This document shows, one piece after another, positions 1,394-45,784 of a stretch of 64,000 nt of DNA. Positions within the stretch are counted from its first letter, which is position 1, and every line of letters begins with the position of its first letter. Position numbers and translations under genes: made by a program. The notes beneath the pieces are model-generated. The model was not told where the DNA came from. It was given only the letters and a program-made list of their open reading frames with translations, and did not search any database. Source of the DNA: Natrinema halophilum (lineage in GTDB: Archaea > Halobacteriota > Halobacteria > Halobacteriales > Natrialbaceae); the NCBI RefSeq assembly GCF_013402815.2, contig NZ_CP084880.1, forward strand, positions 310,001-374,000, in the 5' to 3' direction.

Positions 1394-1569
1394 CAGCCGC
1401 CTTGATGACCGGCAGTCGTTACGTCCGGGAGGTCGAAGACTGCGGCAAGGTACGTATCGTTGTTCCACTAACGGGGTTTGTGCCGAGGGGAGTACGTCTG
1501 GGGCTTTGGGGCTTTGACGACCGGGGAAGCGGGGCTCGATGTCGCCGTCACAACACGTCTGACTGAGTG

Positions 1570-2835
1570 ATGGACAACGTTTTAGTGACCATCGGGAAAG
1601 GCATGTACATGGGAGGCGACCACGAGGATCTTGTCTGGCGTCGAAATATTCTGGAGCAAGTACTGACTGTTCGACAGGAGGTTGCATCCACCGTTGGGAC
1701 AGAAACAGTCCCCATCGACTCGATTTCGGGGCGAACAATAGCCGAACCTGTCGTTGCCGACCGAGATATGCCGGAACACGACTTCGCGACCATGGACGGG
1801 TTCGCATTCGATGCGACGGACCCATATCCGTTGACCGTCGTCGAAGGGGAAGTCTATCCGGAAAATAAACCATCGGCGCTCGAATCGGGCGAAGCGATCC
1901 GCGTTGCGACGGGCGCACCAATTCCAGAGGCGGCGAACGCGGTGTTGAAACGGGAAGATGCAACCGTCGAAGACGGTTTGCTCCATGGAACCGACATTTC
2001 GCCGGGAACGTACACGTACGAACGTGGCGGGAACGTCAGTGAAGGTGACGTCCTCTTCGAACGAGGCGATCGTCTCTCGGCCAAAGATGCGATTCTCCTC
2101 GGTGACCTCGGAAAATCACGCGTCGACGTCACCGAAACCGTTTCGACGGGGGTTCTTGCGACGGGAACGGAGATCCACGAGGGCCGATCGCGCGACCTCG
2201 ATTCACCTATGTTGTCCGGTCTCGTCCGCTCGTGGGGACACGAAGCGACCTACGAGGGAACCGTCCCGGACGAGTACGATCGAATCGAATCGTCGATCGA
2301 AGAACTCGCGACGGAATACGACGTCGTCATCACGACGGGAGGGACGAGCGTCGGGCACAAGGATCACGTCATCCGAGCGTTAGAGTCGCTCGGATCGGTC
2401 GTCTTCCACCGTGTTCGACTTCGACCCGGCAAGCCCATCGCGCTTGCTCGATTACCCGACCACGATGCGATCGTCTTCGCCATCCCGGGGAAACCGATCG
2501 GCGCGCATACTGTCGCCACGCTCGTGATGCGGCCGTTCTTCACTGGCGAAACGTCGATACCGACGGTGCCTGCGTCCATGGAACGAGCGGTCTCTCTCGG
2601 GCCCGACGGCTTCGAATACGCGATTCCCGTGACCCTCTCTACGAACGCTGGTGATCGTCGGGCCATGCCGCTCGGTCACAGTGATTCGCCCCTGCAGGTA
2701 TACGACGACCGGTTCGATCCGAGCGTCCTCTCTTCGAGCACCCGTGCGAGTCAAGCGGACGGCATCGTTATCACTCGAACGGCGCTCGAGGCCGACGAGA
2801 ACGTCGAGGTCGTTCCGTATTCGGCAATCGAATGA
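1570..2835 (+). CDS. moeA: molybdopterin molybdotransferase MoeA family
   Basis: About 421 residues. MoeA inserts molybdate into adenylated molybdopterin to give active cofactor in the cytoplasm. The order is typical: an N-terminal segment with the RDMPEHDFATMDGFAF motif (the P-x-x-x-x-S/T-x-M-D-G-(F/Y)-A signature), the central MoCF-like domain with the TTGGTSVGHKD loop and the RPGKPIALA / IPGKP motifs, and a C-terminal beta domain. GTG 1567, ATG 1570 and ATG 1609 are all possible starts; I chose ATG 1570. The stop overlaps the ATG of the next gene by four bases, so it is translationally coupled to a MocA/YgfJ-type transferase. That pairing suggests a copy dedicated to the molybdenum hydroxylases further right rather than the housekeeping one, which is inference. 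Confidence 0.88.
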   Translation: MDNVLVTIGKGMYMGGDHEDLVWRRNILEQVLTVRQEVASTVGTETVPIDSISGRTIAEPVVADRDMPEHDFATMDGFAFDATDPYPLTVVEGEVYPENKPSALESGEAIRVATGAPIPEAANAVLKREDATVEDGLLHGTDISPGTYTYERGGNVSEGDVLFERGDRLSAKDAILLGDLGKSRVDVTETVSTGVLATGTEIHEGRSRDLDSPMLSGLVRSWGHEATYEGTVPDEYDRIESSIEELATEYDVVITTGGTSVGHKDHVIRALESLGSVVFHRVRLRPGKPIALARLPDHDAIVFAIPGKPIGAHTVATLVMRPFFTGETSIPTVPASMERAVSLGPDGFEYAIPVTLSTNAGDRRAMPLGHSDSPLQVYDDRFDPSVLSSSTRASQADGIVITRTALEADENVEVVPYSAIE

Positions 2836-3485
2836 CGCGGGAGGACCTTCCGGTCGTCGACCCGCCACCGGTCGACGAGATCGAACGGGACGGCTCCGTT
2901 CACGGCGTCGTTCTGGCGGCAGGGACGAGCGATCGATACGGGTCGAAGAACAAATTACTCGAAACGATCGACGGAACCCCGTTGATTCGGCACGCAGTCG
3001 CGACGCTCGTCGAATCCAGCGCCGCGCCGGTCACTGTCGTTCTGGGATACGATCGAGAACGCGTTCGAAGGGTGCTCAGCGAGTACGACGTGGACTATCA
3101 GTACAACGAGTCCTACGAGAACGGCCAGAGCACCTCGGTTCGAACGGGAATTTCGGCCGCTCGCGAGCGCGATTCGGATGCTGTCGTCTTTGCGCTCGGT
3201 GACATGCCGGCGGTATCCCCGACTACGGTCGATCTGCTCGTTTCCGCTTATCAATCGGGGTGTGGCTCGGTACTCACCGCTGGCTACGACGGAACGCGGG
3301 GAAATCCGGTATTGTTCGACTCGCGGCATTTCGACTCTCTCGGTTCCGTATCGGGTGACGTCGGCGGACGGACCGTGCTCCGAAACGCGTCAGATGCAGC
3401 TATCGTCGAAACTGGCGACCCGGGCGTTCTTCGGGACGTCGACCGTCCGGGCGACCGAGAACGAATGGACTCCGGCCCGAAATAG
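2832..3485 (+). CDS. MocA/YgfJ-type molybdenum cofactor nucleotidyltransferase
   Basis: This 217-residue NTP transferase has the nucleotide-binding signature LAAGTSDRYGSKNKLL at its N-terminus and the ALGDMPAVSP metal-binding motif mid-protein. The family (MobA-like, MocA or YgfJ) adds CMP or GMP to molybdenum cofactor. YgfJ-type members are recurring accessory proteins of selenium-dependent molybdenum hydroxylases, and MocA makes the cytosine dinucleotide form for xanthine-dehydrogenase-type enzymes. Which nucleotide is used here cannot be read from sequence. It overlaps moeA by ATGA. The tail after about residue 200 is polar and probably disordered. Confidence 0.82.
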   Translation: MTREDLPVVDPPPVDEIERDGSVHGVVLAAGTSDRYGSKNKLLETIDGTPLIRHAVATLVESSAAPVTVVLGYDRERVRRVLSEYDVDYQYNESYENGQSTSVRTGISAARERDSDAVVFALGDMPAVSPTTVDLLVSAYQSGCGSVLTAGYDGTRGNPVLFDSRHFDSLGSVSGDVGGRTVLRNASDAAIVETGDPGVLRDVDRPGDRERMDSGPK

Positions 3486-25580: not shown

Positions 25581-25868
25581 GTGACCGTACTGGCGGACGT
25601 GCACATCGACGTCAGTGGAATGGTTTGCCCGCAACCGGTGAGCATCGTCCGCCGCTGTCTCGAGGAACTCGAACCCGGCGACGAACTGGTCGTTACCGGT
25701 GATTATCCGCCAGCCGAACGCAGTATTTGCAGAACCTGCTACAAGCACGGATATGCGGTCACCGATGCCACCGACGACGACTCTGACGGTGCGGAAACGT
25801 TCACCCTTCGAATTCGTGTAACCGAGGGCGTCACACCCTCCACGGGTGAGACGAGACACCGTAACTGA
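25581..25868 (+). CDS. TusA/SirA-family sulfurtransferase-like protein (copy 1)
   Basis: 95 residues, start GTG 25581. It has the single catalytic cysteine motif of TusA: VCPQP with C16, followed by the expected beta-alpha-beta-alpha-beta pattern. Two further cysteines (ICRTCYKHGY) and the GDYPPAERS loop match the TusA-like protein beside SelD at 44524-44784 closely, so the two are paralogues. TusA-type proteins carry persulfide (or perselenide) between partners. In orphan-SelD genomes a SirA-like protein is a known companion of the selenium genes. It stands alone here, beside the molybdenum hydroxylase genes. A C-terminal tail of about 15 residues is polar. Confidence 0.82.
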   Translation: MTVLADVHIDVSGMVCPQPVSIVRRCLEELEPGDELVVTGDYPPAERSICRTCYKHGYAVTDATDDDSDGAETFTLRIRVTEGVTPSTGETRHRN

Positions 25869-27015: not shown

Positions 27016-29466
27016 TTACGCTTCGCGGCGCTCGATCGCCGCTTTGACGTCCGTCGCAGTGATCGGGAGCGACGTCATGCGCACCCCAACGGCGTCACTA
27101 ATCGCGTTACTGAGCGCGGGTGGGATTCCGTTCGTCGGCAGTTCGCCGATGGATTTGGCGCCGAACGGGCCCGTCGGCTCGTGTGTTTCGACCAGGATCG
27201 TCTCCATCGGTGGGTGATCCGTCGTCCGTGGCATCCCGTATTGACGGAACCCGGTCGTCTGTGGGTTCCCCTCGTCGTCGAACTCCAACCCGCCACTCGT
27301 CGCGTACTCGAGGCTCATGTGTTGGCCTCCCTCGACCTGCCCCTCGGCAAGCGGTGGATTGATCGCAACGCCGCAGTCGGCCGCGTAGACCAGTTTGTTC
27401 AGTTCGAACTCGCCGGTCTCCTCGTCGACGGTGACGTCCACGAATTGCGCGCCGAACGGCGGCGGACTCTCGTCCGTCGAGTGGTGGCCGTCGCCCATGA
27501 TCTGTTCGCGTTCGTCGTGGCCGTAGGTCGCTTCGTAGCCGATTTCCTCTAAGTCGACGCTCGCGTCCGTCTCCTCGCTGTAGACTTCCCCGTTTCCGGT
27601 CTCGAGGTTCGCTTCGGGTTCCTCGAGGAGTTTCGATCCCCAGTACAATAGGCGATCTTTGGCGTCTTCGGCTGCTTTTTTGACCGCCGTTCCGCTGATG
27701 TACGTCGTCGACGACGCGTAGGAGCCGTAGTCGAACGGCGTGATGTCAGTATCTGACGATTTGACGACGATATCATCCGGTCGACAGCCGAGCACTTCGG
27801 CTGCGACCTGGCTGAACATCGTATCGTTTCCCGTTCCAGTGTCGACACCGCCGACGTGAAGGTGGAACGAGCCGTCCTCGTTCATCATAAGTTTTGCAGC
27901 GCCGAGTTCCTTGCCAGCGACCCCGCTTCCCTGTGCACACATCGCCATCCCGACCCCACGATGGAGGTTGTCTTCCTCGGGTTGCTCGACGTCGTCCCAG
28001 CCGATCGCGTCCATGCCGCGTTCGATACACTCTTCCAGGCCACAGGAGCGAATTCGTCGGGCAAAACGATCGTCGTCCTTGAGGATGGTCGAAACGTCGT
28101 CGAGATCCCCCTTTCGTATCGCGTTTTGGCGCTTGAACTCGATGGGGTCTATCCCGAGGTCGCGGGCAACCTCATCCATGTGTGCCTCGACGGCGAAGTG
28201 ACCCTGTGGGGCACCGTACCCGCGCATCGCGGCACCCATCGGCAGGTTCGTGTGAACGACGTCGCCCTCGAACCGGATGTTCGGAACGCGCGGATACAGC
28301 GGAAGCGCCTTTGTTCCGACGTTCGTTGCGACCGTCATCCCGTGGGTGCCGTACGCTCCGGCGTTCGAGCGCGCATAGAGGTCCATCGCCACGATCGTCC
28401 CGTCCTCGGTCACTGCCGATCGCATCGTCATGTCCATCGGATGGCGCGACCGCAGCGCGTAGAATTCCTCCTGTCGCGTCATCTCGAGTTTGACGGGTCG
28501 GTCGACCTCGAGGTGAAGTGCGAACGCGATCGGTTCGATCGCCATCTCCTGTTTCGCGCCGAAACCGGCGCCGACGCGGGGTTTATCCACGCGGATATCT
28601 CGGATCGGCACGTCGAAGACGTGCGCGAGCTGTCGTCGCGTGTGATTTGGCACCTGCGTTGCGGTGATGAACGTGTATCTGTCGTCTTCGTCCGTATAGG
28701 CGATCGTCGTGTGGGGCTCTGGAACGCAGTGGGACTGATACGGCGTGTCCAGTTCGGTCTCGTGTACATGGACGTCGTCACGCTCGAACGCTTGCTCGAC
28801 GTCGCCGATTTCTCCTTCGAAGTGCGACTCGAGGTTACGTTCGTACTCCGCGCCGCTCTGTGCGTTTTCCACCTCGTCGTCTTCGAACAGCCGTGGCGCA
28901 TCCGGTTCCATCGCCCTCTCTACGTCGAAAACGGCGTCGCGTTCCTCGTACTCGACCTCGATCGCGCGGGCGGCTCGATCCGCGATCTCACCGGTTTCGG
29001 CGGCGACGGCCGCGACCGGATCTCCCACGAACCGAACGTGTCTCCTGAGAACGCGCATATCCCACGGACTCGGTTCCGGATAGGACTGGCCGGAACTCGA
29101 GTACAGCGTGTTGGGAACGGCGTCGTCCCAGGGTGTGACGACTGCGTATACGCCGTCCATCGATTCGGCCTTGCTTGTATTGATATCTGTCACGATGCCG
29201 TGTGCGACGTCGCTGCGGACGACCGTCCCGTGGGCGAGGTCGGGAAACTGACGGCTGTAATCGGCTGTATACTGCGCCTCGCCCGTAACGATCTTCCGCG
29301 CGTCGTCCTTTTCGACGTCCGTCGTGAGATTTTCGCGTTCGTCACTAGGTTTGCGGTTGTTCTCCGGTTCGTCCCACTCCATCGGGGACTGCTCGGAGTC
29401 GGCGACTCGTCGCTCGCCTTCTTCGGTCGTGTCGTCGGGACGATCTCGTTCAGTCGGTTTACTCAT
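27016..29466 (-). CDS. molybdenum hydroxylase large (Mo) subunit, copy 1 (xanthine dehydrogenase family)
   Basis: 816 residues. The Mo-subunit pattern is complete: KIVTGEAQYTADY, VRSDVAHG, cofactor-contacting KPRVGAGFGAKQEM near residue 300, GAAMRGYGAPQGHFA, VGGVDTGTGNDTMFSQ, SYASSTTYISG, and the C-terminal GAKSIGELPTNGIPPALSNA in which the Glu is the catalytic base equivalent of xanthine dehydrogenase. It hydroxylates purines or other N-heterocycles using water. A polar leader of about 60 residues precedes the domain. It overlaps the 2Fe-2S gene by ATGA. No FAD subunit is in the window, so electrons must leave by another route. Selenium-dependence is inferred from context. Confidence 0.87.
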   Translation of the reverse strand: MSKPTERDRPDDTTEEGERRVADSEQSPMEWDEPENNRKPSDERENLTTDVEKDDARKIVTGEAQYTADYSRQFPDLAHGTVVRSDVAHGIVTDINTSKAESMDGVYAVVTPWDDAVPNTLYSSSGQSYPEPSPWDMRVLRRHVRFVGDPVAAVAAETGEIADRAARAIEVEYEERDAVFDVERAMEPDAPRLFEDDEVENAQSGAEYERNLESHFEGEIGDVEQAFERDDVHVHETELDTPYQSHCVPEPHTTIAYTDEDDRYTFITATQVPNHTRRQLAHVFDVPIRDIRVDKPRVGAGFGAKQEMAIEPIAFALHLEVDRPVKLEMTRQEEFYALRSRHPMDMTMRSAVTEDGTIVAMDLYARSNAGAYGTHGMTVATNVGTKALPLYPRVPNIRFEGDVVHTNLPMGAAMRGYGAPQGHFAVEAHMDEVARDLGIDPIEFKRQNAIRKGDLDDVSTILKDDDRFARRIRSCGLEECIERGMDAIGWDDVEQPEEDNLHRGVGMAMCAQGSGVAGKELGAAKLMMNEDGSFHLHVGGVDTGTGNDTMFSQVAAEVLGCRPDDIVVKSSDTDITPFDYGSYASSTTYISGTAVKKAAEDAKDRLLYWGSKLLEEPEANLETGNGEVYSEETDASVDLEEIGYEATYGHDEREQIMGDGHHSTDESPPPFGAQFVDVTVDEETGEFELNKLVYAADCGVAINPPLAEGQVEGGQHMSLEYATSGGLEFDDEGNPQTTGFRQYGMPRTTDHPPMETILVETHEPTGPFGAKSIGELPTNGIPPALSNAISDAVGVRMTSLPITATDVKAAIERREA

Positions 29467-30008
29467 CGATCCGTCTCACCTCGTGAATCGACCTCGAGTC
29501 CCGTGTCCTCGCAGCGACACGAGTATCCGCCATCGGCAGCAACCGTCTGCTCACCCATTCGTTCCGATGCCTCGAGGACCGCTTCGACGATTTTCTTGTA
29601 TCCGGTACACCGACAGAGGTTGTCAGACAGCGCCTCCCGGACTTCAGCCTCGCTCGGTGATGGGTTCTCCTCCAGCAGCGCCTTCGATCGCATAATCATC
29701 CCCGGAATACAGAATCCACACTGCAGCGCCGAGTTGTCGACGAACGCCTGCTGAACCGGGTGCAGATCGTCCTGAGTGCCGAGCCCTTCGACCGTCTCGA
29801 TGGTCGCACCGTCGGCCTTCACGACCGGCGTTATACACGACATCGTCGGCTCTCCATCGATCTGGACGGTACACATTCCACACGCGCCGGTGTCACAGCC
29901 GCGCTTAGCACCGGTGTATCCGTTCTGACGCAACACGTCGAGCAGGAGGTCTGATTTCGATACCTCGAAGGACCGTTCGTTACCGTTGATTGTACATTCG
30001 ATGTGCAT
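29463..30008 (-). CDS. molybdenum hydroxylase 2Fe-2S subunit, copy 1
   Basis: 181 residues starting at ATG 30008 (MHIECTING); a longer reading frame begins at 30047 but adds no conserved residues. It has the plant-type 2Fe-2S site C-x4-C-x2-C-x11-C (GCDTGACGMC and SC after 11 residues) and the second site CGFC ... CRC of the xanthine-dehydrogenase family. It passes electrons from the molybdenum subunit. The C-terminal 25 residues carry an extra CRC and are not in the usual fold. It is the first gene of a two-gene minus-strand operon; AT-rich DNA upstream (30090-30120) likely holds the promoter. Confidence 0.88.
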   Translation of the reverse strand: MHIECTINGNERSFEVSKSDLLLDVLRQNGYTGAKRGCDTGACGMCTVQIDGEPTMSCITPVVKADGATIETVEGLGTQDDLHPVQQAFVDNSALQCGFCIPGMIMRSKALLEENPSPSEAEVREALSDNLCRCTGYKKIVEAVLEASERMGEQTVAADGGYSCRCEDTGLEVDSRGETDR

Positions 30009-30288
30009 ATGGCTCACTCTATGGGGGATGCTACCACTATACCTCACACCACACGTACCGGAACCTTAAGATTTGTCGAGGTTTCTGCTCACTAATAATA
30101 TGTAATAAAACATTTTTGGAGGTTATCCTTATTCACAGATACGTGAGATCACGAATGCCTGAAAGTCCCGAATCCGCGAACGACGTCCGTTCGATAGGTC
30201 GGGAGTGTGACCCGCGGAGACGGGTCAGATAACGGAGAGTGCGAAGAATGGAGGGAATGGTGGTCCGAAGTGTCAGATTGGGGTTAGC

Positions 30289-32733
30289 TCACTCGTCGTC
30301 TTCGAGGGCGGCTCTGATTTTTTCCGGGGTGATCGGCATGTCGGTGATCCGAACGCCGACCGTTTCACGGATGGCGTTGCTCAGCGCGGGCGGAACCGTG
30401 TTCGTCGGCACTTCCGCCACGGATTTGGCGCCGAACGGGCCGGTCGGCTCGTGCGTTTCGACCAGAATCGACTCGATCGTCGGCGTCTCCGACGCCGTAG
30501 GCCAGTCGTAGTCGCCGAAACTCGTCACCTCCGATCGGCCGTCGTCGTCGAACGTAATGCCTTCGCTGACCGCCATCTCGTAGCTCATGTGGTTTGCGCC
30601 TTCGACCTGTCCCTCTGCCATGCCGGGGTTGATCGCGACCCCGCAATCGACCGCGACGACGAGCTTGTTGACCTCGAACTCGCCGGTTTCTTCGTCGACG
30701 GTGACGTCCGCGAACTGTGCGGCAAACGGCGGCGGACTCTCCTCCGTGCAGTGGGTCCCTTTTCCGAGGATGTGTTCGCGTTCATCGTGCCCGTAGGCGG
30801 CCTCGTAACCGATCTCTTCGAGGCTGACGCTCTCACCCGTCTCTTCACTGTAGACCTCCCCGTCTCCCGTCTCGAGGTTCGCTTCGGGTTCCTCGAGAAG
30901 TTTCGAGCCCCAGTGAAGGATGCGCTCTTTCGCGTCCTCTGCGGCCTTTTTGACCGCCATGCCGCTGATGTAAGTCGTCGAGGAGGCGTACGCCCCGTAG
31001 TCGAAGGGCGTGACGTCCGTGTCGGACGATTTAATGACGATGTCCGTTTCGGGACAGCCGAGCACTTCGGCTGCGATCTGGATGAACGCCGTGTCCGCTC
31101 CGGTTCCGATATCGACGCCGCCGACGTGCAGGTGGAACGACCCGTCCTCGTTCATCATGAGCTGGGCGGCACCGAGTTCGTCGCCCGCGACACCGGTCCC
31201 CTGTGCGGAGAGTGCCATCCCGATGCCTCGGTGGCGGTGCTCCTCGTCCGGTTGGTCGATGTCGCCCCATCCGATCGCGTCCATACCGCGTTCGATACAC
31301 TCGTCGAGGCCGCACGAGCGGATTCGTCGCTCTGCACCTTCGCCACCCATCATGCCGGCGATTTCGTCGAGATCGCCGACTTCCATGTAATGGCGTTTGC
31401 GGAACTCGATGGGATCGAGGTCGAGATCGCGGGCCACCTCGTCTAAGTGTCCCTCGAGCGCGAGGGTGCCCTGTGGGGCGCCGTAGCCACGCATCGCCCC
31501 CGTCTGTGGGGTGTTCGTGTGGACGATATCGGCTTTGAATCGCGCGTTCGGAACCTTCGAGTACAGCGGCATCGGCTTGCTACCGACGTTTCCGGCGACG
31601 GTCATGCCGTGACTCCCGTACGCGCCCGTGTTCGAGAGCGCGTACAGATCGATGGCTTCGATCGACCCATCGTCGGTAACTGCGGTGCGCGCTCGGACTT
31701 TCATCGGGTGTCGCGAGCGCATCCCGGCGAACTCCTCTTCGCGCGTCGCTTCGTAGATGACTGGACGGTCGGCCGCGAGGGCCAGCGCGAGCGGAATCGG
31801 CTCGACGACCATCGCCTGTTTGCCGCCGAAGCCGCCACCGACCCGTGGCTTCGAGACGCGAATGTCCCGAATGGGGATGTCGAACAGGTGAGCTAGCTGT
31901 CGGCGCGTGTGATTGGGTACCTGCGTACTCGTGACGAGTACGTGTCTGTCGTCCTCGTCGGTGTACGCGAGGGTGGTATGTTTCTCGATCTGGGCGTGGG
32001 ACTGTCGGATCGTCTCCCACTCGGTTTCGTGGACGTGGACGTCGTCACGATCGACGGCCCCGTCGACGTCACCGATCTCGCCCTCGATCTGGGACATCCG
32101 ATTGCGGCTGTAATCGTGCCCGACGATCTTGTTCTCGACCTCGTCGTCGCCGAATATCTGGGGGGCGTCCTCGGAGTATGCCTCCTCGGGATCGAGTACG
32201 TAGTCGTTCTCCTCGTATTCGACCTCGATGGCGTCGGCCGCGGCGCGTGCAGTCTCGGCGTCGTCAGCCGCGATTGCTGCGACCGGATCGCCGATGTAGC
32301 GGACGTGCTCGTTGAGCACGTTCATGTCCCATGGGCTCGGTTCGGGGTAGGACTGACCCGCGCTCGTATACTTCGCGTCCGGGGTTTCGTCGGACCACGG
32401 CGTCAGAACGGCGTGGACGCCGTCCATCTCTTCTGCGTCGTTCGTGTCGATATTCGCCACTCGACCGTGTGGAACGTCGCTACGGACGACGGCGGCGTGT
32501 GCGAGGTCCGGGAACTTCTTCTCGTAATCCGCTGTGTATTTCGCCTGACCGGTGACGAGTTTCGGATCGTCGTCTTTCTCGGCCGATTGGGAGACGCTGG
32601 CTCGTTCGTCGGGGGCTAGATTGTTGTTCTCCGGTTCGTCCCACTCGAGTGGATGGTCCTCGAATTCCGTGACGTCCTGTTCCGGGTGCGATGCGGTACC
32701 ACCATCGGGCTTCGGATCGTTTTCGTTACTCAT
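30289..32733 (-). CDS. molybdenum hydroxylase large (Mo) subunit, copy 2
   Basis: 814 residues from ATG 32733. It is a clear paralogue of the copy at 27016-29466, with the same order: KLVTGQAKYTADY, PRVGGGFGGKQAM (more canonical than copy 1's GAGFGAKQ), GAMRGYGAPQGTLA, VGGVDIGTGADTAF, AYASSTTYISG and GAKSVAEVPTNTVPPALSNA with the conserved Glu. The acidic leader is about 55 residues. It overlaps its 2Fe-2S gene by eight bases. Purine-degrading bacteria with selenium-dependent enzymes often have two (xanthine dehydrogenase and purine hydroxylase), so two substrates are plausible. Tandem duplication is visible from sequence; the substrates are not. Confidence 0.87.
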   Translation of the reverse strand: MSNENDPKPDGGTASHPEQDVTEFEDHPLEWDEPENNNLAPDERASVSQSAEKDDDPKLVTGQAKYTADYEKKFPDLAHAAVVRSDVPHGRVANIDTNDAEEMDGVHAVLTPWSDETPDAKYTSAGQSYPEPSPWDMNVLNEHVRYIGDPVAAIAADDAETARAAADAIEVEYEENDYVLDPEEAYSEDAPQIFGDDEVENKIVGHDYSRNRMSQIEGEIGDVDGAVDRDDVHVHETEWETIRQSHAQIEKHTTLAYTDEDDRHVLVTSTQVPNHTRRQLAHLFDIPIRDIRVSKPRVGGGFGGKQAMVVEPIPLALALAADRPVIYEATREEEFAGMRSRHPMKVRARTAVTDDGSIEAIDLYALSNTGAYGSHGMTVAGNVGSKPMPLYSKVPNARFKADIVHTNTPQTGAMRGYGAPQGTLALEGHLDEVARDLDLDPIEFRKRHYMEVGDLDEIAGMMGGEGAERRIRSCGLDECIERGMDAIGWGDIDQPDEEHRHRGIGMALSAQGTGVAGDELGAAQLMMNEDGSFHLHVGGVDIGTGADTAFIQIAAEVLGCPETDIVIKSSDTDVTPFDYGAYASSTTYISGMAVKKAAEDAKERILHWGSKLLEEPEANLETGDGEVYSEETGESVSLEEIGYEAAYGHDEREHILGKGTHCTEESPPPFAAQFADVTVDEETGEFEVNKLVVAVDCGVAINPGMAEGQVEGANHMSYEMAVSEGITFDDDGRSEVTSFGDYDWPTASETPTIESILVETHEPTGPFGAKSVAEVPTNTVPPALSNAIRETVGVRITDMPITPEKIRAALEDDE

Positions 32734-33271
32734 TCGTCTCACCGTTGCGTTCGGTTCCCTCGCAAGCGTTTGGGGCAGACGGCGTGCCGCCATCCGTCGC
32801 GACGGCCCCGTCACCGTTCATTCGCGCTGCGGCGTCGAGTATCGCTTCGACGGGTTTCTGATATCCGGTACACCGACACAGATTGTCGTCGATAGCCTCC
32901 CGAACCTCCGCTTCGGTCGGGTCGGGAGTCTCCTCGAGCAGTTCCTTCGTCTGGACGATCATTCCCGGGATACAGAACCCACACTGAACTGCGAAGTGGT
33001 CGACGAACGCCTGCTGGATCGGATGGAGCTCGTCCTGACTACCGATGCCTTCGATCGTCTGGATCGTTGCGCCATCAGCTTCCTGGACGGCTTTTCCACA
33101 CGCCATCTCGGCGCTCCCTTCGATGAGGACCTTCGAAGCCCCGCAGATGCCACCGTCACAGCCGCATTTCACGCCCGTGTACCCTTCGCGACGGAGCACC
33201 GATGCGAGATCGTCGTCCGGCGCTGCCTCGATGTCAAGCGATTCGCCGTTGACGGTCAGGCTGAACTGCAC
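32726..33271 (-). CDS. molybdenum hydroxylase 2Fe-2S subunit, copy 2 (Cys-to-Ser in plant-type site)
   Basis: 181 residues, start GTG 33271 with an AGGAGGG ribosome site six bases upstream (33278-33284), unusual in mostly leaderless haloarchaea. The second cluster site is normal (CGFC ... CRC). In the first, plant-type site the run is C38-x4-C43-x2-S46-x11-C58: the third cysteine ligand of copy 1 is serine here. An extra cysteine sits at C36. Serine can ligate iron in engineered ferredoxins but changes potential and stability. So this cluster may be altered, or C36 may substitute. The upstream gap is divergent with the F420 oxidoreductase gene. Confidence 0.87.
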   Translation of the reverse strand: MQFSLTVNGESLDIEAAPDDDLASVLRREGYTGVKCGCDGGICGASKVLIEGSAEMACGKAVQEADGATIQTIEGIGSQDELHPIQQAFVDHFAVQCGFCIPGMIVQTKELLEETPDPTEAEVREAIDDNLCRCTGYQKPVEAILDAAARMNGDGAVATDGGTPSAPNACEGTERNGETNE

Positions 33272-33524: not shown

Positions 33525-34193
33525 ATGGAGATTGCACTCCTCGGCGGAACTGGCGATATCGGTGAAGGACTCGCTCTGCGGTGGGCTCGTGACACCGAGC
33601 ATAGCGTCGTAATCGGCTCGAGAGACCCGGAGAAGGCAACGAGCCGGGCGAACGATTACGACGAACTCCTTTCGGCTCGTGGTGTCGATATCGACGTAAC
33701 CGGTGTTGGCAACGAGGAAGCCGCGGCGACTGCAGATGTCGTCGTCGTGAGCGTTCCGCCCGAGTACGCCACAGATACGGTCGATACCATCGCATCGCAA
33801 CTCGACGACGAGACCGTTCTCGTGAGTCCCGCAGTGGCGATGCGTCGCGACGGTGCGGGCTTTCACTACGAGGCCCCAGAGGCCGGCTCGGTCGCCGAAG
33901 CGATCGAGGATACAGCACCGAACGACGTCCCAATCGTCGGTGCCTTCCAGAACCTCGCGGCCGGCGCGCTCAGTGACCTGGATCGGGACCTGGCTGCGGA
34001 CGTTATCGTCACCAGCGACGACGCGGAGGCAAAAGCTCTCGTGTCATCGCTTGCGGCAGAGATCGACGGGTTGCGAGCCCTCGACGGCGGTCCGCTTGCC
34101 GTTACCGCGCTCGTCGAGAGCATGACGCCGCTCTTGATCAACCTCGCGATGAACAACGACGGAATGCACGACCTCGGCGTTCGATTTCAGTAA
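33525..34193 (+). CDS. F420H2:NADP+ oxidoreductase-like (NADPH-dependent F420 reductase family)
   Basis: 222 residues from ATG 33525. It opens with a Rossmann loop MEIALLGGTGDIGEGLALR (GxGxxG), then SRDPEKA, the NADP-binding arginine region, and ADVVVVSVPPEYA. The C-terminal part FQNLAAGAL and SMTPLLINLAMNN matches the family that moves hydride between F420 and NADP. It is divergent from the second molybdenum hydroxylase operon. With the F420-type oxidoreductase at 16.9 kb and a transhydrogenase at 48.5 kb, it can balance F420, NADP and NAD pools. Direct coupling to the hydroxylases is inference. Confidence 0.83.
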   Translation: MEIALLGGTGDIGEGLALRWARDTEHSVVIGSRDPEKATSRANDYDELLSARGVDIDVTGVGNEEAAATADVVVVSVPPEYATDTVDTIASQLDDETVLVSPAVAMRRDGAGFHYEAPEAGSVAEAIEDTAPNDVPIVGAFQNLAAGALSDLDRDLAADVIVTSDDAEAKALVSSLAAEIDGLRALDGGPLAVTALVESMTPLLINLAMNNDGMHDLGVRFQ

Positions 34194-34909: not shown

Positions 34910-35830
34910 TCAAACGCCCCGGCCCTGCATCTTCTCTTCCTCGGAGAGGTCGACGTTCGCGTCGCCTTTCATCCCCTTGCCGAGGTTCTTCGAAATTTCC
35001 GCGAGCGTTTCGGGGTCGTCCCAGTTGTTGGTCGCTTCGACGATCGCTTCGGCCATCACGGGCGGGTTTTCGGCGCCGAAGATGCCGCTGCCGACGAAGA
35101 TGCCGTCGCACTCGTGGTGCATCATGAGCGCGGCGTCGGCAGGCGTCGCGATGCCGCCGGCGGCGAAGTTGACGACGGGGAGCCGGCCCATTTCGGCGGT
35201 CTCGTGGACCAGTTCCGCGGGCGCTTCGATCTCGCGGGCGTAAGCTTCGCGCTCCTCGTGGCTCATCCCCTCGAGTTTGCGGATGGCGCCTTTGATGGTG
35301 CGCTGGTGGTGGACGGCCTGGTTGACGTCGCCGGTGCCGGCCTCGCCTTTGGTGCGGATCATCGCCGCGCCTTCGTCGATCCGGCGCAGCGCCTCGCCGA
35401 GGTCGCGCGCGCCACAGACGAACGGGGCGGTGAAGTCGCGCTTGTCGATGTGGTAGGCGTCGTCGGCGGGCGTCAGCACCTCGCTTTCGTCGATCATGTC
35501 GACACCGACGGCCTCGAGAATCTGGGCCTCTTTGGTGTGGCCGATGCGGGATTTGCCCATAACGGGGATCGAAACCGAGTCGACGATCTCCGCGACGTCG
35601 GCGGGGTCTGCCATCCGGGCGACGCCGCCGCGCTTGCGGATGTCCGCGGGGACGGCCTCGAGAGCCATGACGGCGACGGCGCCGGCGTCCTCGGCGATAC
35701 GAGCCTGTTCGGTGTCGACGACGTCCATGATGACGCCGCCTTTCTGCATGCGCGCGAAGCCGCGCTTGACGAGTTCGGTCCCGCGTCGCAGTTCCTCGAG
35801 ATCGGCTGGTGGATCTATTGCGTTCACCAT
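34910..35830 (-). CDS. pdxS: pyridoxal 5'-phosphate synthase lyase subunit
   Basis: 306 residues from ATG 35830. Highly conserved PdxS (SNZ) TIM barrel: [47 protein letters not shown], the ribose-5-phosphate-binding lysines and [26 protein letters not shown]. It makes PLP from ribulose 5-phosphate or ribose 5-phosphate, glyceraldehyde phosphate and ammonia from PdxT; pdxT is not in the window. A TAATAAC element near 35855-35861 implies a leaderless transcript from 35830. The gene is more GC-rich than its neighbours, fitting strong conservation. PLP supply suits the PLP enzyme in the locus. Confidence 0.95.
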
Positions 35831-35973
35831 GGTAGTCGATATCTCCGGCACAATCGTTATTAGCATGTCGTCGGACGGCTACGTTGCACGGGTGTGCCAC
35901 GCGATGGTCACAATTTGCCACAGCCTGACGGACTGTCGCAAAACTATTTGGCGGATAACTCATTCAGGAAACC

Positions 35974-40865: not shown

Positions 40866-41237
40866 ATGATCCACGTCGGGTTTCTGCTTACCGGTGGCCC
40901 CTTCGATAGCGAACGGTGGCGGACAGCATACGAACTCGGCCGGGCAGCGCTCGACGCCGGTCACGAGGTCACGTACTTCCATTATCTCGACGGCGCCTAC
41001 GTTCCGGTCGCCGACCAGCACCTCCCCGACTGTTCGGAGGCGGGACTGTACGACGAAATGCCGACGGATAAGTTTCAGGACCTGATCGACGACGGTGCCG
41101 AGGTGATTTGCTGCGGCCTCTGTGTGAACGCACGGGGTATCGACGCCGAAACGGACTACCCGGACGGCGTCGAAGTCGGTCTGCTGCCGGATCTGGCGGA
41201 TATACTCGGCGAGGCCGATCGGGTGATCTCGCTATGA
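40866..41237 (+). CDS. DsrE-like protein (first of a DsrE/F/H-type trio)
   Basis: 123 residues. DsrE/TusD-type alpha/beta fold: MIHVGFLLTGGPFDSERWRTAY, GHEVTYFHYLDG and the active-site-like ICCGLCVNARGID with C82, C83 and C86; C56 is separate. In DsrE/TusD one cysteine carries persulfide. It overlaps the next gene by ATGA. The trio is absent from housekeeping sulfur operons here and sits directly upstream of the XdhC-YqeB fusion. I infer a chalcogen-transfer role for the molybdenum cofactor; the partner and the element are unproven. Confidence 0.75.
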   Translation: MIHVGFLLTGGPFDSERWRTAYELGRAALDAGHEVTYFHYLDGAYVPVADQHLPDCSEAGLYDEMPTDKFQDLIDDGAEVICCGLCVNARGIDAETDYPDGVEVGLLPDLADILGEADRVISL

Positions 41238-41587
41238 AACGAGACGTCCTCGTCTTGCTCACGCGAGGGCCATACGGTCGCGTCCACGTCCCTGAAGGGC
41301 TTCGGGCGGCTCGTGGCGTCGCTGCCGGCTTCGATCGTCACGACGTCTCCGTCGTGTTCACGCAGGACGGTATCTACGCCGCTCGAGCGGCGGTCGACCG
41401 CGATGCGCTCAACATGACCGACCATCTCATCGACCTCGCAGAGGAAGAGGGTGAGTTGTTCGTCGACGAGGCATCGATGACGGCACGCGACGTCACACCC
41501 GAGGAAATAGCTCCCGACGTCGGCATCAAGACCGGCGAGGAGATCGCGTCGATGATCAAGCAGGCTGATCACACTCTCGACTTTTGA
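41234..41587 (+). CDS. DsrF/TusC-like protein (second of the trio)
   Basis: 117 residues, start overlapping the DsrE-like stop (ATGA at 41234-41237). It shows the DsrE-superfamily pattern (KRDVLVLLTRGPYG, FDRHDVSVVFTQDGIYAA, DLAEEEGELFVDE) with no cysteine at all, as in TusC/DsrF, which are structural members of the TusBCD complex. The C-terminus is EIASMIKQADHTLDF. It is probably one subunit of a hetero-oligomer with the flanking two proteins. Confidence 0.7.
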   Translation: MKRDVLVLLTRGPYGRVHVPEGLRAARGVAAGFDRHDVSVVFTQDGIYAARAAVDRDALNMTDHLIDLAEEEGELFVDEASMTARDVTPEEIAPDVGIKTGEEIASMIKQADHTLDF

Positions 41588-41589
41588 CA

Positions 41590-41835
41590 ATGTTGTATTT
41601 GATTGACAAACCGATGGCGGAAATCGGACTGCGATCGGCGGCGAACGACGACGACGGAATCGTCGTCCTGATACAGGACGGCGTCTTGCTCGATCCGGAT
41701 CTCGACGCGCCGACGCTCGCAGTCGAACGCGACCTCGAGATGCGCGGTCTGACCGCGCCCGAACGAATCGACACCGTCACGTACGACGAACTGATGACGC
41801 TCATGGTCGATCACGAGGTGACGAGTTTCGTATGA
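41590..41835 (+). CDS. DsrH/TusB-like small protein (third of the trio)
   Basis: 81 residues from ATG 41590 (TTG 41584 would overlap the previous stop). It has MLYLIDKPMAEIGL at the N-terminus, then VVLIQDGVLLDP and a C-terminal TYDELMTLMVDHEVTSFV, the usual DsrH/TusB layout (L-L-x-x-D-G-V and a final (D/E)-H). It has no cysteine. The DsrH role is as a partner subunit. It overlaps the ATG of the XdhC-YqeB fusion by four bases, so all four genes form one co-translated set. Confidence 0.7.
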   Translation: MLYLIDKPMAEIGLRSAANDDDGIVVLIQDGVLLDPDLDAPTLAVERDLEMRGLTAPERIDTVTYDELMTLMVDHEVTSFV

Positions 41836-43409
41836 CGCTCTTCGATCGCGTCGACGAACTCGTCGAGCAGGGACGGCCGGCCTCGATGCTGACCGTCGTG
41901 GGCAAAGACGGAAGTGCGCCGCGGGACGTCGGGGCGAAAATGCTCGTGACCGACGAAGACGAGTACGGAACGATCGGCGGCGGAACGGTCGAAGGGCTCG
42001 CCGTCGACGAAGCTCGTGACGTCCTCCGCGGCGACGCCGATCCCGGGGTCCGGTCGTACGAACTGCGTCCCGGCGGCAACACCGGCATGGTCTGTGGCGG
42101 GTCCATGGACGTCTTTATCGATCGAATCCGGGGCCGCTCTCGGCTCCATGTCGCGGGCGGTGGACACATCGGCGTCGAACTCGCGGCGATGGGGAACCGA
42201 CTCGGTTACGACGTCACCGTCGTCGACGACCGCGAGGAATACGCATCCTCGGACCGGTTTGCTGCGGAGGCGGACGTCGTTCACGGGGACTACGACGAGG
42301 TCCTCGCCGAACTCCCGATGACGTCGGAAACGGCGGTCGCCGTCGCGACGCGAAGCGGAACGTTCGACCGACAGGCCGTCGCCGCCGCAATCGACGGTGG
42401 CGCCGGCTACGTCGGCGTCGTTGCCAGCGAAGACAAGGCGGCTCACATTTTCGATTCGTTGCTCGAGGAGGGTTACTCGCGCCGAGACCTCGTTCGCGTC
42501 CGCGCGCCCGTCGGGCTCGACCTCGGTGGGGGTGGACCCGAAGACGTCGCGCTCTCGGTTCTCGCCGAGATGCACCGCGATCGCTACGACACGACAGGCG
42601 AGCGAGCGACCAGACACGATCTCGAGGACCTCGTCGTCGTTCGCGGTGGCGGCGACCTCGGGAGTGGTGTGGTCTATCGCCTCCATCGAGCAGGCTATCC
42701 GGTCATCGTGGCTGAGACGGCGCGGCCGACCGTCGTCCGCCGCGCGGTCGCGTTCGGCGCTGCGATGTACGAGGACGAAGTCTCCATACAGGGCGTCACG
42801 GGCCGTCAGGCCGCCGATATCGACGACGCACTCGCCGCTATCAAAGACGACGAGGTGCCCGTCCTCGAGGACCCGAACGCGACCGTCGTCGACGAACTCG
42901 AGCCGAAGGCCGTCGTCGATGCGATTATGGCCAAGGGGAAGACGGACACCGGAACCCGCCGGGACCTCGCGGACGTCGTCATCGGTCTCGGTCCGGGATT
43001 CGAGGCCGGCGAGAACGTGGACGCCGTCGTCGAAACCGATCGTGGACACGAACTCGGACACGTCATCTACGACGGGAAACCCAGCCCGTACGACGGCGAA
43101 CCGGGTGAACGTCGTGGGTACACTCACGAGCGAGTTCTCAGAGCCCCAAGCGACGGCGTGTGGTCGCCGTCGGTCGAAATCGGCGACATCGTCGAGGCGG
43201 AGGCAACCGTCGGCTACGTCGACGACGATCCGGTCGTCACGGCAATCGGCGGGCTCGTCCGGGGACTCGTCCACGACGGCGTTTCCGTCTCTTCTGGCGC
43301 GAAACTCGGTGACGTCGATCCCCGAGATGACGTCGACTACACGAAGATTTCCGACAAAGCGCTCTGTCTCGGCGGCGGCGTTCTCGAAGCGTTGCTCAAC
43401 CTCTCCTAG
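41832..43409 (+). CDS. XdhC-YqeB fusion protein, selenium-dependent hydroxylase accessory
   Basis: 525 residues. Residues 1-about 252 are XdhC/CoxF-type: GSAPRDVGAKMLV, GGGTVEGLA, the MVCGG site with C88, a Rossmann VAGGGHIGVELA, then APVGLDLGG and EDVALSVLAEM. After a short linker, residues about 266-525 match YqeB: VVRGGGDLGSGVVYRLHRAGY, VVRRAVAFGAAMYEDEVSI, VIGLGPGFEAG, HELGHVIYDG, ERVLRAPSDG and ISDKALCLGGGVLEALL. XdhC binds and sulfurates (or protects) the cofactor before insertion; YqeB is a selenium-dependent-hydroxylase maturation protein. Joining them suggests one step-by-step handover. It is last in the DsrE/F/H-like operon and faces selD. Confidence 0.87.
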   Translation: MTLFDRVDELVEQGRPASMLTVVGKDGSAPRDVGAKMLVTDEDEYGTIGGGTVEGLAVDEARDVLRGDADPGVRSYELRPGGNTGMVCGGSMDVFIDRIRGRSRLHVAGGGHIGVELAAMGNRLGYDVTVVDDREEYASSDRFAAEADVVHGDYDEVLAELPMTSETAVAVATRSGTFDRQAVAAAIDGGAGYVGVVASEDKAAHIFDSLLEEGYSRRDLVRVRAPVGLDLGGGGPEDVALSVLAEMHRDRYDTTGERATRHDLEDLVVVRGGGDLGSGVVYRLHRAGYPVIVAETARPTVVRRAVAFGAAMYEDEVSIQGVTGRQAADIDDALAAIKDDEVPVLEDPNATVVDELEPKAVVDAIMAKGKTDTGTRRDLADVVIGLGPGFEAGENVDAVVETDRGHELGHVIYDGKPSPYDGEPGERRGYTHERVLRAPSDGVWSPSVEIGDIVEAEATVGYVDDDPVVTAIGGLVRGLVHDGVSVSSGAKLGDVDPRDDVDYTKISDKALCLGGGVLEALLNLS

Positions 43410-43502: not shown

Positions 43503-44531
43503 TCAGCCGTGGACCCGTTCGATCGTCGGATCGACGATCGTCGCGCCGGAATCGGTCGTAACGCGGCCGACGTGACGATAGAACACGTTTGCATCTGAGA
43601 GGGAGGACTCGAACGCGTCCGTCTGTCGGTCAGGGACCGCTAGTAATAGCCCCCCGCTCGTTTCCGCACTCTCGCCGTCTTCGAGGCCGTAGCCGAAAAG
43701 CTGGGAGAGCTCGAGGGTGCCGTCGATGATGGGGAGGTGCGTGAGCTCGACGCCGACGCCGGCGTTCTCCGCGAGGACGCGAGCCTGTCCCAGGAGCCCG
43801 AAGCCCGTGATATCGGTCGCGGCCGTCGCGTATTCCCGGGCCGCGAGCATCGCGTCCCTGTTCGGCGTCGTCATCCACGCGAGCGCCTCGTCTGCGATGT
43901 CCTGTACGGGTCGGGCCGTCGTTTCCGCGATCGTCTCGCCGAATTCTCCGTCTCGCACACGGAGCGCGCCCATCGCCGGTTGCGTGCCGAGCGGTTTCGT
44001 CAGATAGAGACGGTCCGACGGCGAGGCGTCGCTCGTCTGGAGGACGTGTTCCGACGGAGTGGTGGCGATGACGGACCCGCCCGCGATCGGCCATGGGTTC
44101 ATGATCGTGTGTCCACCCGCGACGACGCCCTCCATGTCGTCCACCGCGTCGACGATGCCGCACAGAACGTCCGTGGCCGCGTCCGTTAGTTCCTGTGGCA
44201 GGCCGAGGACCACCAGAAATGTCAGATCATCGCCAGCACCGGTCGCGAACGCGTCGCTGGCCGCATTACACGCGGCGATGCGACCGAATTCGTACGGGTC
44301 GTCTATAATCGGCGTGAAGAAATCGATCGTGGAGACGACACTGAGACCGTCGGCGATGACGCGAGCGCTCGCGTCCTCGCCGACACCGAACTGCAGTTCC
44401 TCCTGAGCCTCGGATAACCCGACGTCTGTGAGCAACGAGTCGAGTTCGGCCTGACCGACTTTACACGAACAGCCGTGAAGCTCTGCGTATTCGGTCAGGG
44501 CTGGTGAGCGGTCGTCACCTGCGTCAGACAT
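43503..44531 (-). CDS. selD: selenide, water dikinase (selenophosphate synthase), Cys form
   Basis: 342 residues from ATG 44531. It makes selenophosphate from selenide and ATP. Motifs: HGCSCKVG with C21, C23 and K24 (equivalents of E. coli C17, C19 and K20; Cys, not selenocysteine), GEDASARV, TIDFFTPIIDDPYEFGRIAA, GGHTIMNPWPI, TKPLGTQPAMG, TDITGFGLLGQ and TSGGLLLAV. The active set is complete. No selA, selB or MnmH gene is seen in the window, fitting the orphan-SelD trait in which selenophosphate serves selenium-dependent molybdenum hydroxylases. It overlaps the TusA-like gene by eight bases and is convergent with the XdhC-YqeB fusion. Confidence 0.93.
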   Translation of the reverse strand: MSDAGDDRSPALTEYAELHGCSCKVGQAELDSLLTDVGLSEAQEELQFGVGEDASARVIADGLSVVSTIDFFTPIIDDPYEFGRIAACNAASDAFATGAGDDLTFLVVLGLPQELTDAATDVLCGIVDAVDDMEGVVAGGHTIMNPWPIAGGSVIATTPSEHVLQTSDASPSDRLYLTKPLGTQPAMGALRVRDGEFGETIAETTARPVQDIADEALAWMTTPNRDAMLAAREYATAATDITGFGLLGQARVLAENAGVGVELTHLPIIDGTLELSQLFGYGLEDGESAETSGGLLLAVPDRQTDAFESSLSDANVFYRHVGRVTTDSGATIVDPTIERVHG

Positions 44532-45034: not shown

Positions 45035-45784
45035 ATGAATCTTGCCGAAACGCTCGGCCTCGGGGACGACGAACTCGTTTCGTTCGTCGGCGCTGGCGGA
45101 AAAAAGACTGCCATGACTCGGTTAGTCGCTGAGGCGAGCGAACGAGGTCTCGAGGCGGGATACACCACGACGACACACATGCCGCCGCCGGATCTTCCGC
45201 TCGTTCTCGCCGACCCGGATCGCATCGAGTCCAGTGTCGACGATGCCACAGCTCCGATCGCACTGGCCCGTACACGCGTCTCCAATCCATCCCGCGTCGA
45301 CGAGAAGGTACGAGGATACCAGCCGGCTACCCTCAATTCGCTGTTCGACGATGCTCCGTTCGACTGGCTCCTCGTCAAAGCCGATGGGGCCAGAATGCGC
45401 GAATTCAAAGCACCTGGCCCGAACGAACCGCCGATTCCACAGACGAGCACGGTCGTCGTTCCGGTTGCATCCGTTCAAGCTGTCGGCCAGCCACTCGCCG
45501 ACGACGTCGTCCACCGTGTCGATCGAATCGAACGCTGTGCGGATATCTCGGCAGGCGAGCGTATCACACCGGACGTCATCGGACAGGTTCTCGCTCATCC
45601 TGACGGTGGCCTGAAGCACGTTCCCGACGATGCGACGGTCGTTCCGCTCGTTAACAAAGCGGACGATGCCACGCTTGCGAGACAGGCAACGGATGCCGTC
45701 TCGACGGCCCTCGAGCGCACTTCCCGGCTCGACCGGGGGATCGTCACCTCGTTCGAAACGAACCGTCTCACCGCCGTCACGTGA
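45035..45784 (+). CDS. yqeC: selenium-cofactor biosynthesis protein YqeC
   Basis: 249 residues. YqeC features: a P-loop-like VGAGGKKTAMTRL near residues 18-30 (most homologues read GGKT; here one residue is changed to K), TTTTHMPPPD, the diagnostic VKADGARMREFKAPGPNEPPIPQ and a C-terminal VVPLVNKADD. YqeC is found only with selenium-dependent molybdenum hydroxylases and its enzyme role is not established; nucleotide binding is expected. It is divergent from the tusA-selD pair across a 250-base gap that should hold both promoters. Confidence 0.9.
   Translation: MNLAETLGLGDDELVSFVGAGGKKTAMTRLVAEASERGLEAGYTTTTHMPPPDLPLVLADPDRIESSVDDATAPIALARTRVSNPSRVDEKVRGYQPATLNSLFDDAPFDWLLVKADGARMREFKAPGPNEPPIPQTSTVVVPVASVQAVGQPLADDVVHRVDRIERCADISAGERITPDVIGQVLAHPDGGLKHVPDDATVVPLVNKADDATLARQATDAVSTALERTSRLDRGIVTSFETNRLTAVT

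Follow-up and report, generated by a model that had tools for sequence, protein, structure and literature searches.

What becomes of a plant-type [2Fe-2S] cluster in a molybdenum hydroxylase when a serine stands where one of its four cysteine ligands is expected? The question is raised by a locus of Natrinema halophilum lying within a 64,000-nucleotide stretch of DNA (contig NZ_CP084880.1, positions 310,001 to 374,000; hereafter, the window), which encodes two pairs of small and large hydroxylase subunits, referred to here as copy 1 and copy 2. The genes and codons concerned are as follows.

27016..29466, minus strand: copy-1 large (molybdopterin) subunit, by profile match
29463..30047, minus strand: copy-1 small subunit, with a normal four-cysteine cluster II
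30289..32733, minus strand: copy-2 large (molybdopterin) subunit (Pfam Ald_Xan_dh_C, MoCoBD_1 and MoCoBD_2)
32726..33271, minus strand: copy-2 small subunit, 181 aa, GTG start at 33271 (Fer2 and Fer2_2)
33134..33136, minus strand: codon 46 of the copy-2 small subunit, TCG (Ser), two substitutions from TGC/TGT
33164..33166, minus strand: codon 36 of the copy-2 small subunit, TGC (Cys), the additional cysteine, read from the DNA

Genomes and alignments

Relatives were drawn from three sets: the family (125 genomes), the order (392 genomes), and, among the matches listed, 84,980 GTDB species. The alignment comprised 160 small subunits after removal of duplicates, its GTDB part likewise being taken from among the matches listed.

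The copy-2 small subunit and its partner

Cluster II of the copy-2 small subunit reads GVK-C36-G-C38-DGGI-C43-GA-S46-KVLIEGSAEMA-C58, a spacing of C38-x4-C43-x2-S46-x11-C58. C36 precedes C38 by two residues, and the canonical four-cysteine plant-type pattern C-x4-C-x2-C-xn-C is absent. Cluster I is intact (C97-x2-C100-x31-C132-x-C134), and its four cysteines are invariant in 160/160 aligned small subunits. The copy-1 small subunit has the usual KRGC-DTGA-CGMC. An earlier note on this DNA had described exactly this arrangement, namely serine in place of the third cysteine of copy 2, an extra cysteine ahead of C38, a normal second cluster (our cluster I), and cysteine at the third place in copy 1 and the family, and each element was borne out.

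Pfam domains, fold, cluster I, and the adjoining molybdopterin large subunit all place the protein in the xanthine oxidase family. It scores 22.6 bits against Fer2 (cut-off 21; copy 1 is stronger at 39.1) and 109.4 bits against Fer2_2 (cut-off 30.3; copy 1, 117.9). Three more specific NCBIfam models were not reached: Se_dep_XDH TIGR03311 (131 bits against a cut-off of 830, the model describing a fused protein), XdhC_XDHase NF043084 (144 bits, below the equivalog cut-off of 217), and glyceraldDH_gamma NF041020 (169 bits, below the equivalog cut-off of 290). The AF2 model (pLDDT 85, with cluster-II loop blocks at 84-89) shows a predicted fold that is ordinary for the family, and every top PDB match is to a small subunit of this kind (Z 20-25, rmsd 1.4-2.1, ~150 residues). 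Small subunits of the CoxS/XdhC type (4zoh_C, 1n5w_A, 1rm6_C, 3hrd_D; fold Z 24-25) share with copy 2 the Fer2 and Fer2_2 domains, the cluster I motif, and the adjoining molybdopterin large subunit, and differ from it in that copy 2 has serine at the third ligand position, the additional C36, and altered surroundings. The copy-2 large subunit likely starts at ATG 32733, so that its first 8 nt overlap the end of the small-subunit gene; an identical 8-nt overlap is annotated between the corresponding genes on pNG700 of H. marismortui and pHH400 of H. hispanica. The copy-2 proteins of Haloarcula hispanica ATCC 33960 are WP_014031287.1 and WP_014031288.1.

Conservation of Ser46 and Cys36

Alignment with other haloarchaeal copies, a check proposed in the earlier note, revealed that S46 and C36 are conserved together: C36, C38, C43, S46, and C58 are all present in 37/37 distinct copy-2 orthologs, which span at least 8 haloarchaeal genera with pairwise identity down to 51%. 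The concern voiced there that close relatives might all carry cysteine thus did not hold, as every copy-2 ortholog has S46. Among the matches listed, all 123 other family members aligned have Cys at position 46, and outside the S46 group the cluster II ligands do not vary among the xanthine oxidase family proteins compared. The serine codons of the orthologs are TCG (35), TCC (1), and TCT (1). Among the S46 proteins, L139 and L140 diverge furthest (~57% identity to the window protein); they have L for K35 and V for A45, yet keep both C36 and S46. When columns 36, 46, and 47 were left out of the tree, the S46 proteins all lay beyond one branch (SH-aLRT 100), requiring a single change; on this tree the clade has a single origin, with its ligand set apparently fixed since the subfamily arose. 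Further positions that distinguish the clade (K47, M56, A57, G59, A23, and F93) are for the most part close to the cluster along the sequence. A degenerate DNA pattern of the motif matched 6/392 genomes across the phylum, each a SelD carrier already identified in the order sample, while the reversed control pattern matched 0/392.

Position 36 is R, E, K, V, or another residue in 117/123 of the C46 homologs. The remaining six are clostridial-type small subunits (L095, L096, L102, L107, L108, and L109), which combine C36 (KCGCKEGECGAC) with a normal third cysteine, so that C36 was rejected as a feature restricted to proteins that have lost the ligand.

Values of dN/dS for the copy-2 small subunit are 0.12-0.43, similar to those of the copy-1 small subunit, and ~0.1 for the copy-2 large subunit; judged by these ratios, the copy-2 small subunit is under purifying selection. 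The suggestion that the altered cluster is weak through decay is disfavoured by the same values and by the fact that 32 genomes in the order sample retain the signature. Neither a sequencing error nor decay of a copy that no longer functions has anything in its favour beyond the departure from a family-wide ligand. Given one S46 clade with this residue shared by 32 genomes of the order that were sequenced separately, a serine codon two base changes from cysteine, purifying selection, and a retained partner large subunit, we regard this explanation as excluded for practical purposes, its probability being negligible.

Linkage to selenium genes

The two pairs lie in a compact selenium/purine island (window positions 24430-45784), which also contains the following.

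25581..25868, plus strand: TusA/SirA-like sulfurtransferase (profile search and locus comparison)
33531..34193, plus strand: NADPH-dependent F420 reductase NpdG, divergently oriented next to copy 2 (TIGR01915, 245 bits, cut-off 150)
40866..41587, plus strand: two DsrE/TusC-like proteins, conserved beside YqeB
41832..43409, plus strand: XdhC-YqeB fusion, selenium-dependent Mo cofactor maturation (TIGR03309, 340 bits, cut-off 220; also matches XdhC_C and XdhC_CoxI)
43503..44489, minus strand: SelD, selenophosphate synthetase (TIGR00476, 244 bits, cut-off 125; NF010705, 306 bits, cut-off 291)
45035..45784, plus strand: YqeC, selenium cofactor biosynthesis (TIGR03172, 183 bits, cut-off 73)

Linked SelD, YqeB, and YqeC, the combination by which selenium-dependent molybdenum hydroxylases are recognised, are thus found together in the window. 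The island also encodes a xanthine permease (one of two purine permeases in all), an adenine deaminase, and allantoate-amidohydrolase-like and allantoinase-like enzymes. A selenate-like ABC substrate-binding protein in the island scores below the TIGR04553 cut-off. A pdxS-like gene (34910-35866, named by sequence reading) lies between RidA and the permease, and adjoins the copy-2 large subunit gene in L157. MoeA-like and MocA-like molybdenum cofactor genes occur on the same plasmid-like contig (window positions 1567-3485).

Synteny of the island is maintained in the loci examined, and the linkage of SelD, YqeB, and YqeC is conserved; NpdG adjoins copy 2 in most loci, L139 and L140 included, though not in all. 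The orphan-SelD locus of Haloarcula marismortui pNG700 has the same gene set and order as the window (small and large subunits of copy 2, then of copy 1, two DsrE, XdhC-YqeB, SelD, TusA, YqeC). This locus was linked to selenium use by Haft & Self 2008 (PMC2276186), in which a term search found no mention of iron-sulfur ligands, and is likewise tied to selenium use in passages of Zhang et al. 2008 (PMC2432076), where no ligand change is mentioned. The literature searched held nothing specific on serine-ligated plant-type ferredoxins or on purine/selenium in haloarchaea.

In the family sample, SelD scores above cut-off in 12/125 genomes, and the S46/C36 protein is present in these 12 and in no others (hypergeometric 6e-17, a value that ignores kinship). 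SelD was found in 33/392 genomes of the order sample, 32 of which have the S46/C36 protein; the lone exception (G282) is an assembly 72% complete, with the contig cut. No S46/C36 protein was found in any SelD-less genome among the 392 of the order. In part, this association stems from the inheritance of the island as a single unit. Copy-1-like pairs are common without SelD (Cys46 is present in 18/18 copy-1-like proteins from SelD-less genomes), and two SelD genomes, G311 and G419 (loci L139 and L140), have the copy-2 pair only, with no copy 1 match, which suggests that the copy-2 pair is the SelD-linked enzyme. The same two genomes disfavour copy 2 as a mere accessory of copy 1. To judge from sequence comparison, the tracking of SelD by an S46/C36 subunit appears to be new here.

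Could C36 and/or S46 then serve selenium chemistry, for example with C36 relaying selenium or acting as a docking point during its delivery, rather than tuning a cluster? The near-perfect co-occurrence of signature and SelD would fit, as would the retention of only the copy-2 pair in G311 and G419. However, three bacterial loci (L090, L110, and L111) have YqeB, and in two cases YqeC, near family small subunits that keep a four-cysteine cluster II without C36; the signature is therefore not needed for the selenium pathway generally, and S46 was rejected as a general feature of selenium hydroxylases. Furthermore, the known labile selenium site described in passages of Zhang et al. 2008 (PMC2432076) is at the Mo centre. 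A role in selenium chemistry thus seems very improbable.

Proposed electron exit from a probably FAD-free enzyme

A PF00941 search of the whole genome found no FAD subunit gene, despite the presence of two molybdenum hydroxylase pairs, leaving no candidate for an FAD partner encoded elsewhere in the genome. PF00941 was likewise found in none of five other genomes carrying the copy-2 pair (G015, G023, G028, G065, and G093). Desulfovibrio aldehyde oxidoreductase also lacks FAD, and the copy-2 complex may, by analogy, function without it. With FAD possibly absent, cluster II (Fe/S II) would become the point of electron exit, and electrons would pass from Mo to Fe/S I, to Fe/S II, and on to an external low-potential acceptor, which would be a ferredoxin or possibly an F420-linked protein. 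A role for NpdG linked to this acceptor is speculation. We regard the enzyme as probably a purine-type molybdenum hydroxylase that depends on selenium and lacks FAD.

Loss of the cluster would be one way to accommodate a missing ligand. Cluster II could be absent, labile, or sensory/regulatory, with a disulfide possible across C36-G-C38 and electrons leaving from Fe/S I. The CxC pair is indeed present, the residues beside C58 are remodelled, and [2Fe-2S] clusters are often destabilised by loss of a ligand. We nevertheless consider this improbable, given that C38, C43, and C58 are invariant in 37/37 orthologs, that electrons would have far to travel to the surface if cluster I were the sole centre, and that dN/dS carries no sign of relaxed selection.

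Ligation of cluster II

E. coli SdhB (1NEK chain B) offers a plant-type site with the same C-x4-C-x2-D-x11-C spacing, and copy 2 resembles it both in this spacing and in having a non-cysteine residue at the third position. It differs from copy 2 in having Asp rather than Ser, in lacking an additional cysteine, and in being a different enzyme. Asp63 of this protein we take to be a cluster ligand in 1NEK; mitochondrial SdhB has Cys where E. coli SdhB has Asp. In rat xanthine oxidoreductase (XOR), the Fe/S II ligands are Cys43, 48, 51, and 73, and electrons flow from Mo via Fe/S I and Fe/S II to FAD (PMC3509653). Cys51 is the third Fe/S II cysteine, in the same place as Ser46, and was mutated to Ser and Ala (Iwasaki et al. 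2000, as cited in passages of PMC3509653). The same passages report that Cys43Ser or Cys51Ala yields insoluble or monomeric protein, which suggests that the third-cysteine position matters for folding. The Cys51 variants are laboratory mutants, whereas the copy-2 serine is natural and fixed. Rubredoxin centres with a Cys-to-Ser ligand change have potentials 100-200 mV lower, and in [2Fe-2S] clusters the Raman bands are upshifted by ~10 cm-1 when a ligand is oxygen (PMC6006211).

On the strength of the rat XOR Cys51, E. coli SdhB Asp, and rubredoxin Cys-to-Ser precedents, we favour a native cluster in which Ser46 supplies an oxygen ligand. C38, C43, and C58 are retained, the third cysteine is replaced by Ser46, and C36 is added, all being conserved together. 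We propose that Fe/S II, the outer, ferredoxin-type cluster of the SelD-linked hydroxylase, is retained with noncanonical ligands: the Ser46 oxygen would bind the inner iron (Fe2), giving a 3-Cys/1-Ser cluster of more negative potential, and C36 would be a second-shell residue stabilising or protecting the cluster II site. We hold this explanation tentatively, at close to an even chance.

The strict conservation of C36, equal to that of S46 (37/37), would also be expected if C36 had taken over from the third cysteine, giving an all-cysteine cluster (C36, C38, C43, and C58) on a shifted loop, with S46 in the second shell. Such a swap accords with the invariance of C36 wherever S46 occurs and with the other residues found at position 36 in most C46 homologs. 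On the other hand, C36 also occurs in the six clostridial-type homologs whose third cysteine is intact, and by itself implies no ligand role. In plant-type sites, the first two cysteines hold Fe1 and the third and fourth hold Fe2; C36, a residue beside C38, would therefore need to reach the other iron. An unused S46 would, moreover, be expected to drift, and it never does. We judge the swap, the foremost alternative to Ser46 ligation, possible, though on the unlikely side.

If Ser46 is indeed the ligand, the change would tune the step by which electrons leave Fe/S II. The more specific proposal, that a natural serine-ligated cluster (3 Cys + 1 Ser) forms a low-potential exit that replaces the FAD subunit and delivers electrons to a ferredoxin or F420-linked acceptor, is one that we advance as doubtful.

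Implications

The S46/C36 arrangement is, by its distribution among the proteins compared, a natural, inherited redesign of a known subunit family, and a new variant tied to a selenium locus. Through its co-occurrence with SelD, it can serve to recognise the selenium-linked hydroxylase of haloarchaea by sequence. As a fixed natural serine, Ser46 would provide a ready system for the study of oxygen-ligand tuning of Fe/S II, with copy 1 as a matched control in the same genome.
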